From Shouchella hunanensis (GTDB taxonomy: Bacteria > Bacillota > Bacilli > Bacillales > Bacillaceae_D): a DNA stretch of 64,000 nucleotides. Below the pieces are notes generated by a model. That model had not been told where the DNA came from and searched no databases. It worked only from the letters and a program-made list of their open reading frames with translations. The DNA lies in the NCBI RefSeq assembly GCF_028735875.1, contig NZ_CP117834.1:372001-436000 (forward strand), read 5' to 3'. The translations under genes were made by a program, and so were the position numbers. Below, piece by piece: positions 49,375 through 64,000 of the stretch; position 1 is the stretch's first letter; each line of letters opens with the position of its first letter.

Positions 49375-50577
49375 TTATAGAGGAAACTTCCCTTTTTTAA
49401 GAGTAAGCATCGGTCCACCAAGAATAAATAAGGCACGGTTATCAATCATTTTTTTCATGAAGTTTGCTGTTCCACCGTAAATTTTCTTCGAACCAACAAC
49501 ACCAATTGCTTCTTTTCCACCAAGAGAAGCTACAGTCCCTTTAATGTCTGGCTTAAAGCTCTCAAGACTTGAACCACCTTTGTTAAGTGTTACGATGTTA
49601 TTTGCACATGTTTTAGCCATTTGCATCGCAATCTGTGCTGTCGGCGGATAAGGACGGTTTATTTCTTCATTAATAATCAGCGCACAGTCACCGATAACAA
49701 ACACATCATCAAAGCCTGGTGCACGTAAATCCGGCTCCACTTTAATACGTCCGCGATTTGCTTCAAAACCTGATTGATCAATAACTGGATTCCCACGAAC
49801 CCCTGTCGCCCATACGATTGTCTCAGATTTAATTTCTTCGCCTTCTCCAACAATAACACCTGAAGCCGTAACCTCTTTAATAGGTGTGTTAATTTTGAAC
49901 TCAACGCCACGACTTTCAAGCAAGTTCATTCCGTATTCAACAAGCTCTGGATCGAATCCAGGAAGCGCACTTGGAGCTGCTTCCACTACGAATAAACGAA
50001 CTTTTTCACGTGGTACATCGTATTTTTTACATAGCTCTGGAATACGCTCAGATAATTCACCGATAAATTCAATACCTGTAAAGCCAGCGCCAGCTACTAC
50101 GAATGTTAACATGCCCTCATGAGGATCAGCTGTGTTGTTGTAATTAGCAAACTGGGCATCAATGTGATCTTTTACTTGACGCGCGCCGTTTAACGTCCAC
50201 TTTGTGAATGCATGTTCATGAACACCTGGGATGCCAAATGTTTCTGATACAGCACCTAACGATACAACTAAATAGTCGTAATCTAGCTCACCATCTTTAA
50301 GCATCACTTTTTTGTCGTCTGTTTTAATTTCTAGCACTTCATCTTGAACGAAATTCACTTTGTTTGTATTTAAGACATCGGAAATCTTAACTCGAGTACG
50401 ATCTGGGTCCATCGTTCCCGCTGCTGGTTCATGTAACCACGTTGTTTGGTAATGGTAGTCGTGCTTATTAACAAGTGTAATGGATGCTTCGTTGTGCCCT
50501 AATTTTTTTGACAACGCTACAGCGGTATTCATTCCACCATATCCAGCACCTGCGATAACGATCTTTGCTTTGTTCAC
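49375..50577 (-). CDS. yumB: Type II NADH dehydrogenase YumB
   Basis: 400 residues. FAD site [10 protein letters not shown] at the N-terminus, NADH site [16 protein letters not shown] near residue 164, FAD-binding FVIGDCALI near residue 299. Membrane-associated through the C-terminal region; passes electrons from NADH to menaquinone without proton pumping. A second homologue (YutJ) is at 63.1 kb. Divergent from yumC, as in B. subtilis. Confidence 0.9.
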
Positions 50578-50762
50578 TTCAAATCACTTCCAATTTAGTA
50601 TTTTAATTCTTATGGCGTTAATGTTTGTGAGAAATTTCACGTTCTTATTCACAACAAAGGAATTTCATAGAATCGTCATATAATCCAACACTCTAATAAT
50701 ATTCGTTTTTTCTTCAAAATTCAACTCCATTATACAAAAAAATTATCTTTCATTCCTGCCCT

Positions 50763-62103: not shown

Positions 62104-62334
62104 TTATGTTAAAGTAAAACATATCTTATTTATCTTTTCTAGTAATTGAGCTGGTGTCTCACCAGCAACATACGTATCATTAATGAACAGAAAATGCTCT
62201 TGGTTACACACTCCACACTGTGTTAAACAGCCATATTCTACTATTTCAACGTGTGGAAGTGACAGTAAGGAGTTAATGACTTCATCTGTCCCATTATGTA
62301 CATTGTTCATGCAGCACTCAATCAACATCTTCAC
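62104..62334 (-). CDS. yuzB: YuzB-family (DUF1450) protein
   Basis: About 76 residues. The pattern EYGCLTQCGVCNQEHFLFINDTYVAGE with CCMNN near the N-terminus matches YuzB: conserved Cys residues suggest a thioredoxin-like/ferredoxin-like small fold. Function unknown. GTG at 62334 has GAGG eight bases upstream; ATG at 62328 is the alternative. B. subtilis yuzB is divergent from yutJ; here a TetR frame intervenes. Confidence 0.82.
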   Translation of the reverse strand: MKMLIECCMNNVHNGTDEVINSLLSLPHVEIVEYGCLTQCGVCNQEHFLFINDTYVAGETPAQLLEKINKICFTLT

Positions 62335-62426
62335 TTCGTTCACCTCTTTTTTATGCTACTTTGTCACTACTGTAAAGTCAATCTGAATCAAACGTATTGG
62401 TAAAAGAAGAAAGTATAAATTTTGGG

Positions 62427-62478
62427 TTGTCGAATGAAAGCACAATCGGTATAATCAAAACTGACCAGAGTCATTTTT
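62427..62478 (+). promoter_or_regulatory. Promoter and dyad operator of the TetR-YutJ frame
   Basis: TTGTCG (62427-62432), 17 bases, perfect TATAAT (62450-62455). Directly after the -10, AAAACTGAC and GTCATTTTT form a near-perfect dyad around CAGA (62457-62478; core TGAC/GTCA) that covers the expected start point near 62462. A TetR protein bound there would repress its own transcript. Confidence 0.65.
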
Positions 62479-62541
62479 AGTTCCAATCACTCGTAACCGA
62501 GGTGAAAAAACAAACCGTATTCTTTAAACGGTTTTTAAAAA

Positions 62542-64000
62542 ATGAATCAATCGAAAAAAAACCGAACACGATCTGCCATACTTCAATCTGCACATACCTT
62601 ATTTTATGAAAAAGGGTTTGAAGAAACAACGGTTGCAGAAATTACAAAAGGAGCACATGTAGCGAAAGGTACATTCTTTAACCACTTCCCTACAAAAGAA
62701 TCCATTTTACACGCTCTATTTGAGAAACAATTGTTAGAGCTATTAAATCAACAGCAAGAGAACCTTTCTTCAGAAACAATCTTAACGCAAATTCGTTCAA
62801 GCTTACTTTATTTACTAAAGGATTATGATATTCATCCTAGCCTAACGATTCAAACTTGGAAACATGTAATTGAAAATGAAAAGCGCTTGCACACCTATTG
62901 GGTTGAGCTGTTAGAAAAAGCTTACGAAACACTTTCGTTAGCAGAGAGAGAGCATTACGCTCATATTATTAACAGCCATATTGCCTATACGATGAGTGCT
63001 TTCCATCAAGAATCCACAAGAATAGGACTTGTTCATCGAGCGATGTCCTTAATTGAAACTAGTTTTAACGCAATTTCGCTTAAAAGGAGATCTCTACTTA
63101 TGAAGAAACTCGTTGTACTTGGAGCAGGTTATGGTGGTATGCGCGTCTTACAAAGACTGCTACCAAATGACTTACCAAAAGACTGGGAAATTATTCTCGT
63201 TGATGAAATGCCTTATCACTGTCTAAAAACTGAATACTATGCACTTGCAGCTGGAACCGCATCAGATCACCATTTACGAGTTACCTTCCCAGAAGATGCT
63301 CGTCTACAAATTAAATACGCAACTGTCACTGCTATCCACGCTGAAGACCACTCTATCCAGTTGAACAACGGTGAAACCCTTGCCTTCGATAAACTTGTTA
63401 TCGGTTTAGGCTGTACAGACAAATATCACGGCGTACCTGGTGCGGATACATATACGTATAGCATCCAAACGATGAGTGCGACTCGCCGCACGTATGAAGC
63501 GCTAAATAATGTTAGACCAGAAGGCGTCGTCTCCATTGTAGGTGCTGGCTTGAGTGGCGTTGAATTAGCAAGTGAGCTACGCGAAAGTCGACCTGACCTC
63601 TCAATTAAACTATTTGATCGCGGCGAATCTGTTATGAGTCAGTTCCCTAAGAAATTAAGCGCATATGTTCAAAATTGGTTTGTAGAGCACGGAGTTGATG
63701 TCAGCAACAATTCAAACATTACGAAAGTAGAACCCGGCGCACTTTACAATCATGATGAACGAATTGAAAGTGATGCAGTCATTTGGACTGCTGGTGTCCA
63801 GCCTGTTCGTGTCGTACGCGATCTAGATGTAGAAAAAGATCGATCTGGACGTATCATTTTAACACCACAACATTTTATCCCCAATCATCCGGATATCTTT
63901 GTCGTTGGTGATTGTGCGAGCTTACCTCACGCACCAAGCGCACAGCTTGCGGAAGGGCAAGCGGAACAAATCGTTACCATCTTAAAACATCAATGGAAAG
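62542..64000 (+). CDS. TetR-family regulator in continuous frame with NADH dehydrogenase YutJ (3' partial)
   Basis: The first 186 codons encode a full TetR protein: HTH segment RSAILQSAHTLFYEKGFEET, then TVAEITKGAHVAKGTFFNHF and PTKESIL, followed by an all-helical ligand domain. No stop codon follows; codon 187 is the ATG of yutJ and the frame stays open to the window end. The predicted product is a TetR-flavoprotein fusion. An in-frame TAA at 62536 fixes the start at 62542 or later. The nearest Shine-Dalgarno (GAGGTG, 62499-62504) is 37 bases away across a hairpin. A lost stop by one-base indel is the alternative. Confidence 0.75.
   Translation, partial: MNQSKKNRTRSAILQSAHTLFYEKGFEETTVAEITKGAHVAKGTFFNHFPTKESILHALFEKQLLELLNQQQENLSSETILTQIRSSLLYLLKDYDIHPSLTIQTWKHVIENEKRLHTYWVELLEKAYETLSLAEREHYAHIINSHIAYTMSAFHQESTRIGLVHRAMSLIETSFNAISLKRRSLLMKKLVVLGAGYGGMRVLQRLLPNDLPKDWEIILVDEMPYHCLKTEYYALAAGTASDHHLRVTFPEDARLQIKYATVTAIHAEDHSIQLNNGETLAFDKLVIGLGCTDKYHGVPGADTYTYSIQTMSATRRTYEALNNVRPEGVVSIVGAGLSGVELASELRESRPDLSIKLFDRGESVMSQFPKKLSAYVQNWFVEHGVDVSNNSNITKVEPGALYNHDERIESDAVIWTAGVQPVRVVRDLDVEKDRSGRIILTPQHFIPNHPDIFVVGDCASLPHAPSAQLAEGQAEQIVTILKHQWK
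63100..64000 (+). CDS. yutJ: Type II NADH dehydrogenase-like flavoprotein YutJ (internal start, 3' partial)
   Basis: Starts MKKLVVLGAGYGGMRVLQRL, matching the beginning of B. subtilis YutJ as I recall it, with AAAGGAG ten bases upstream of the ATG. About 300 residues are present; some 50 are missing past the window edge. FAD site GAGYGGMRV, NADH site VGAGLSGVELASEL near residue 147, and VVGDCASLPHAPSAQLAEGQ near residue 268. It would oxidise NADH and pass electrons to menaquinone. Independent initiation here would release YutJ without the TetR part. Confidence 0.88.
   Translation, partial: MKKLVVLGAGYGGMRVLQRLLPNDLPKDWEIILVDEMPYHCLKTEYYALAAGTASDHHLRVTFPEDARLQIKYATVTAIHAEDHSIQLNNGETLAFDKLVIGLGCTDKYHGVPGADTYTYSIQTMSATRRTYEALNNVRPEGVVSIVGAGLSGVELASELRESRPDLSIKLFDRGESVMSQFPKKLSAYVQNWFVEHGVDVSNNSNITKVEPGALYNHDERIESDAVIWTAGVQPVRVVRDLDVEKDRSGRIILTPQHFIPNHPDIFVVGDCASLPHAPSAQLAEGQAEQIVTILKHQWK

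Follow-up and report, generated by a model that had tools for sequence, protein, structure and literature searches.

The question raised by this locus is whether a TetR-type regulator and the flavoprotein YutJ, which share one reading frame near the downstream edge of the 64,000-nucleotide stretch of Shouchella hunanensis DNA analysed here (the window), form a single gene in nature and, if so, what such a gene might do. An uninterrupted frame from TetR into YutJ had been proposed in the original prediction, and this is borne out. Positions 62542-63999 of the plus strand are free of stop codons, giving 486 codons up to the window edge, and the upstream ATG, the internal ribosome-binding site and an out-of-frame TGA (63101-63103) that overlaps the internal ATG are positioned as described. 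In the whole genome (G000), which is a single contig of 4.06 Mb, the fused protein has 541 amino acids: a TetR-type domain of 186 amino acids preceding the internal ATG (62542-63099, plus strand) and a YutJ flavoprotein domain of 355 amino acids that starts at that ATG (63100-63102) and occupies 63100-64000 of the plus strand before ending just outside the window. Pfam TetR_N matches residues 13-59 with 55.6 bits (cut-off 24) and Pyr_redox_2 matches residues 189-468 with 120.1 bits (cut-off 26.1). Both domains are present in all 38 aligned relatives (alignment A1; TetR_N at E <= 0.001).

A comparison with close relatives, which the original prediction had named as a check, finds the fused frame conserved. 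We searched 60 genomes, counting our own, and in 34 the query is matched almost from end to end with no stop: 33 of the family's 36 genomes, six of them single-contig assemblies, and G039 of another family. The exceptions within the family are G006, which has both halves in different frames, and G007 and G032, which have YutJ only. We also ran a profile of the TetR part against 397 genomes of the order, where it found 47 genomes at E <= 1e-25. The best 39 TetR orthologues (E <= 3.2e-40, from seven families) all lie in frames of 542-596 codons and are therefore fused, with G215, G383 and G324 scored from frame length only; the remaining eight matches (E >= 4e-30) belong to other TetRs, with frames of 201-216 codons. 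Against 398 genomes of the class the profile gave four matches at E <= 1e-28, two of them already known; G497, from another order, is fused, and G491 has an unfused TetR of 206 codons.

We aligned 55 loci to the window: residues 155-200 show no deletion, and residues 165-200 no insertion. The 55-locus counts given here and below omit the duplicates L008, L169 and L176, the split L108 and a near-copy of the window's locus from the Shouchella miscanthi chromosome (L032, with a TetR part 100% identical in protein to that of the window), include L021 despite its broken N-terminal frame, and are not independent trials because the loci share descent. A second alignment, A2, comprises 33 of the 38 A1 rows (omitting L008, L009, L013, L021 and L104). 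The fused locus L179, which lies outside the 55, keeps the internal ATG with a weaker ribosome-binding site, AAAGGAAG, and has the palindrome described below with one mismatch.

The internal start of yutJ is strongly conserved. Its ribosome-binding site, AAAAGGAG (63082-63089, plus strand), lies inside the fused frame with a spacing of 10 bases to the ATG. Across the fused loci the ATG is kept in 55/55, as is the 10-base spacing, and the core of the site reads AGG(A/G)G, or GGG(A/G)G in two. Bases -16, -14, -13 and -11 relative to the ATG are invariant in all 55. The residue ahead of the AGG codon may be K, Q or R, yet its last base is A in every locus, and the codon that follows encodes Arg, Ser or Gly and always starts with AG or GG. 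AGG itself is used in 53 of the 55, and the two loci with GGG (L174 and L177) lose the arginine to glycine and retain the ribosome-binding site. AGG makes up 8.7% of the 437 arginine codons of the TetR parts and 2.7% of the 976 of the YutJ parts. Synonymous diversity, calculated like pN/pS below from six groups of close relatives that together hold 31 of the 55 loci, is also lower over residues 160-186 (pS 0.50) than in the helix-turn-helix (HTH) region (0.71), the remaining TetR part (0.75) or YutJ (0.76). The internal site is thus conserved as bases, beyond what the amino acids need. Because site and ATG are conserved at this level in 55/55 loci, two products are likely, as had been proposed, and we consider it highly probable from the sequence that both TetR-YutJ and free YutJ are made.

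The upstream start is arranged differently. GAGGTGA (62499-62505, plus strand), which probably serves the fused gene as ribosome-binding site, is far from the ATG at 62542: the distance from its AGGTGA core to the ATG is 38 bases, and no ribosome-binding site adjoins the ATG. A distant upstream site, 29-38 bases from the ATG and separated from it by a possible hairpin whose sequence varies, is found in all eight Shouchella loci examined. A possible hairpin (arms 62512-62518 and 62528-62534) lies between the two elements in the window, with arms that look compensated where the sequence varies. The eight Shouchella leaders gave z values of -0.3 to -2.1, none of them significant, and in six the fold of lowest energy base-pairs some of the ribosome-binding site itself. 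Regulation of the upstream start by a structured leader is conceivable.

The promoter region of the fused gene carries a candidate operator. A -10 box, TATAAT (62450-62455, plus strand), is followed by a 20-bp palindrome, AAAnTGACCnnGGTCAnTTT (62458-62477), the core of which, TGACCAGAGTCA (62462-62473), has one mismatch. The palindrome TGACCnnGGTCA is found just downstream of the -10 box in 55/55 fused loci, 46 of them perfect and nine with one mismatch; after shuffling, 4 of 1100 upstream stretches contain a core this close (at most one mismatch), and the 15 yutJ loci without a TetR part contain none. The palindrome should cover the transcription start, since a box at most one mismatch from TATAAT lies 5-7 bases ahead of it in 53/55 loci (12-13 bases in L025 and L026). 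Within 62104-62541, a small divergent gene of 79 amino acids (62104-62343, minus strand), which looks like yuzB, has the same upstream region as the fused gene.

We searched for further copies of this site. In its own genome the 20-bp form is matched best at 62458-62477, and 35 sites with up to three mismatches compare with 32 in the reversed control; because the count is at control level, no second target is supported and we rejected the idea of a wider regulon. The 12-bp core alone, with up to one mismatch, gives 72 sites against 126 in the control and is uninformative. A search of 36 genomes included 21 TetR-bearing family genomes, among them G006, with 14 other family genomes lying outside the sample. 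The 20-bp form (up to one mismatch) stands at this gene in 21/21 of these TetR-bearing genomes and is the sole site in 20. Extra sites across the 36 genomes number one in G016 and one in G037, and the reversed control has matches in 7/36. The fused genome G039 has no 20-bp form within one mismatch, and its 12-bp core is perfect (L107). The simplest reading looks like a dedicated self-repressor, and it is very probable, judging from these patterns, that the palindrome is bound by the fusion.

We examined the history of the fusion in a tree of 71 YutJ sequences. One clade, with support of 99/98, holds 52 of the 55 fused rows; nested within it are four rows labelled separate (L108, L109, L110 and the long-branched L123), and the fused L045, L164 and L165 fall outside it with weak support. 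This topology suggests one early fusion followed by losses. However, the tree needs seven changes, at least five of them forced by supported branches, so a single origin is not proven and there may have been more than one gain.

Several of the separate or broken loci retain an intact yutJ. In L108 the TetR frame ends in a TGA on the yutJ ATG, the arrangement that the original prediction had given as evidence against a fusion; it is found in this locus, and the great majority of relatives are fused. As L108 comes from an incomplete draft (86% complete, 290 contigs) and is adjoined on very short branches by the fused sister L006, its split may be a recent event or a draft error. In the draft locus L021 the fused product is broken near the N-terminus (L021 1462-1530). 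L109 and L110 have yutJ without a TetR part, using the same yutJ start alone, and both have a divergent 78-amino-acid gene at the place equivalent to that of the 79-amino-acid gene in the window. L109 (3300-3577) belongs to G007, a 2.6-Mb genome of the same genus that has no close TetR orthologue (best match 4.4e-15). Its promoter is still present ahead of yutJ, together with what looks like a decayed operator: TATAATCAAAAC is kept and is followed by a two-mismatch version of the palindrome. That version alone is not significant, as shuffling TetR-less stretches 300 times produced a match with two mismatches or fewer on 20 occasions, and it looks like a relic on the strength of the flanking TATAATCAAAAC. 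We interpret L109 as a probable natural loss of the TetR part.

Both halves of the protein are under selection. The pN/pS ratio is 0.16 in the HTH, 0.34 in the middle of the TetR part, 0.40 in the last helix and linker, and 0.12 in YutJ, and the recognition region hardly varies, which parallels the near-invariance of the palindrome. An AlphaFold model built from 38 sequences (mean pLDDT 77.9, pTM 0.59) has nine TetR helices in residues 3-181, with ten-residue pLDDT means of 64-92, and the first flavoprotein strand from residue 189; it is unreliable for the relative placement of the halves, and most of residues 500-541 fall below a pLDDT of 50. With its N-terminal TetR_N HTH and a predicted all-helical fold that includes a C-terminal regulatory domain, the first half appears to belong to the TetR family. 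The usual input of a TetR repressor is a small molecule bound in its own pocket. The C-terminal domain, in which W106, W120 and H141 are nearly invariant and of which the ninth modelled helix runs to residue 181, could respond to an unrelated ligand.

The YutJ half aligns with structures of type II NADH dehydrogenases (NDH-2; 4nwz and 9pxk) over nearly its full length, from residue 193 to beyond 530. NDH-2 enzymes are described as marked by GxGxxG (FAD), GxGxxGxE (NAD) with E172, and a GD pair, and by a quinone-site motif AQxAxQ with the named variants AQxAxR and APxAxQ (PMC5299459). The window's protein has GAGYGG, GAGLSGVE (with the E172 equivalent) and G456-D457. None of the A1 rows departs from the GD pair or from the G and E positions of the second motif, and four of the 38 (L016, L017, L023 and L106) have another residue in place of the final G of the first. 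The quinone motif and its variants are absent from 55/55 fused rows, which have AQLAE(G/S/E)Q there; AQLAGQ occurs in one of 16 separate yutJ rows. The name NADH dehydrogenase is uncertain because AQxAxQ is lacking: the quinone-motif test of an NDH-2 assignment failed, and the type II NADH dehydrogenase label of the original prediction is doubtful, although the fold is NDH-2-like. Nor is the protein a member of TIGR03169 (Nterm_to_SelD), with 104 bits against a cut-off of 310. There is a single C-terminal amphipathic stretch (moment 0.50, against a 95th percentile of 0.45 and a maximum of 0.59 for the protein), in a part of the model that is mostly below a pLDDT of 50.

The best Foldseek match of the model is 9a5s_A, which belongs to a PDB entry titled as an integrative B. 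subtilis YutJ-ferredoxin model, with 63% identity over 359 columns. The link between YutJ and ferredoxin derives solely from that title, since the main text of PMC10090944 does not mention YutJ. In a B. subtilis spore study YutJ is counted as an NADH dehydrogenase isoform that was undetected in spores (PMC12772218). A second NDH-2-like flavoprotein gene, a 402-codon frame with 33% identity to the YutJ part, is present about 12 kb away in the window (49615-50586, minus strand), and a comparable second gene lies within about 15 kb in several relatives.

The fusion, the palindrome, the internal start and selection on both halves are supported by the sequence, and we infer repression, the making of both products and flavin-gated release. 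Our preferred reading, to which we assign a probability of roughly 0.6, is a PutA-like enzyme-repressor: one gene, two proteins, and a flavin domain that gates transcription of its own gene. Initiation at the first ATG would give a DNA-binding repressor with a C-terminal FAD/NAD(P)H oxidoreductase half, which would repress itself by binding the palindrome that covers the start of its transcription. The internal ribosome-binding site and ATG would yield free YutJ from that same transcript. The fused dimer would be altered by the redox or substrate state of its flavin domain, with NAD(P)H as partner on one side and ferredoxin, quinone or another acceptor opposite, such that the operator is released. 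The demand on the enzyme would then determine how much of it is present, much in the manner of PutA although the domains differ. Gating of the operator by the flavin domain is the least secure step, and we place it only a little above even odds. A further, tentative extension, which we think possible but would not bet on, is a new class of redox-gated transcription factors in which an entire respiratory-type flavoenzyme, fused to TetR, serves as the sensor; the enzyme-only isoform would pair with the fusion via the flavoprotein half, the isoform ratio and the flavin redox state would tune self-repression, and ferredoxin rather than quinone may be sensed.

Three other explanations bear on this reading. 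The fused frame could be a sequencing or assembly artefact in which two ordinary overlapping genes have been merged by a one-base error, the alternative that the original prediction had offered, and the out-of-frame TGA that overlaps the internal ATG and the overlapping-gene arrangement of L108 are what such an error would predict. However, the same open frame in 33/36 family genomes, six of them single contigs, and in 39/39 close orthologues of the order, together with the lack of deletions and insertions near the junction in 55 loci, is incompatible with a local error. Because so many independent relatives share the frame, we rejected the indel artefact for this genome, its probability being negligible, and we regard a true fusion in nature as practically certain. 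A real fusion might still make one product, with the internal start a relic or the upstream start hardly used, so that the gene is effectively yutJ. The remote upstream ribosome-binding site of the eight Shouchella loci fits this idea, as do the two drafts (L108 and L021) that lost the fused product and retained yutJ. A relic, though, would not be expected to show bases that stay invariant while codons drift in seven families; purifying selection acts on the HTH, for which there is a matching palindrome; and L109 and L110 use the same start with no TetR part upstream. A single product is therefore improbable.

The strongest competitor accepts the fusion and removes the redox gating: an ordinary ligand-sensing TetR self-repressor, with YutJ as a covalent passenger or an amount-coupling device. 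The usual length and helix order of the TetR domain and its near-invariant C-terminal residues such as W106, W120 and H141 are expected of a repressor that senses through its own pocket. On the other side, the C-terminal TetR domain is less constrained (pN/pS 0.34) than the HTH (0.16) or YutJ (0.12), and one stop codon would suffice to split the halves, yet it is absent in 39/39 close orthologues among 397 genomes. We consider this explanation a real contender that is nonetheless clearly the less probable, and we retain the enzyme-repressor with flavin gating as the preferred reading. Whichever holds, several families of Bacilli have retained a TetR repressor in one chain with an oxidoreductase, together with a second start and a matching palindrome, and the fusion bears on the function of YutJ. 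If gating is true, the locus would illustrate in compact form how an enzyme can signal its redox state to the promoter that drives it, with one gene yielding both a repressor-enzyme and the free enzyme.

We found no description of a TetR-YutJ fusion in the open-licence literature among the matches listed, an absence that is weak evidence; in PMC8824206 the two Pfam names occur in separate tables. Similarly, no PDB chain among the best 60 of 304 for the whole profile matches both halves. Each half has known counterparts. Stand-alone YutJ of B. subtilis and other Bacillales is the same enzyme and has a comparable ribosome-binding site and start, but lacks the TetR part and, in the 15 loci examined, any palindrome within one mismatch. 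NDH-2 (C. thermarum 4nwz and B. subtilis YjlD 9pxk) shares two dinucleotide-binding domains, GxGxxGxE and GD, whereas the YutJ half is shorter, has AQLAE(G/S/E)Q for AQxAxQ and carries the additional N-terminal TetR domain. TetR self-repressors, such as the Bacillus fatty acid regulator 3whb, have the HTH, the nine helices and a palindrome at their own promoter; their chains of about 190-200 amino acids stand alone, and here the domain is fused to YutJ.

The closest parallel is PutA, a flavoenzyme whose N-terminal domain binds DNA and which is described as repressing its own regulon and switching to a membrane-associated enzyme (PMC5293562). Both proteins combine a DNA-binding domain and a flavoenzyme in one chain, and here a candidate operator, identified in silico, lies at the protein's own gene. 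Domain searches of the fusion and of the A1 rows gave no ribbon-helix-helix or proline dehydrogenase model among the matches listed. As the domains are unrelated, the likeness is functional at most, and by analogy TetR-YutJ may work like PutA without being a member of that family. PutA joins ribbon-helix-helix and proline-oxidising domains, whereas TetR-YutJ joins a TetR domain to an NDH-2-like domain and has a conserved internal start between them.
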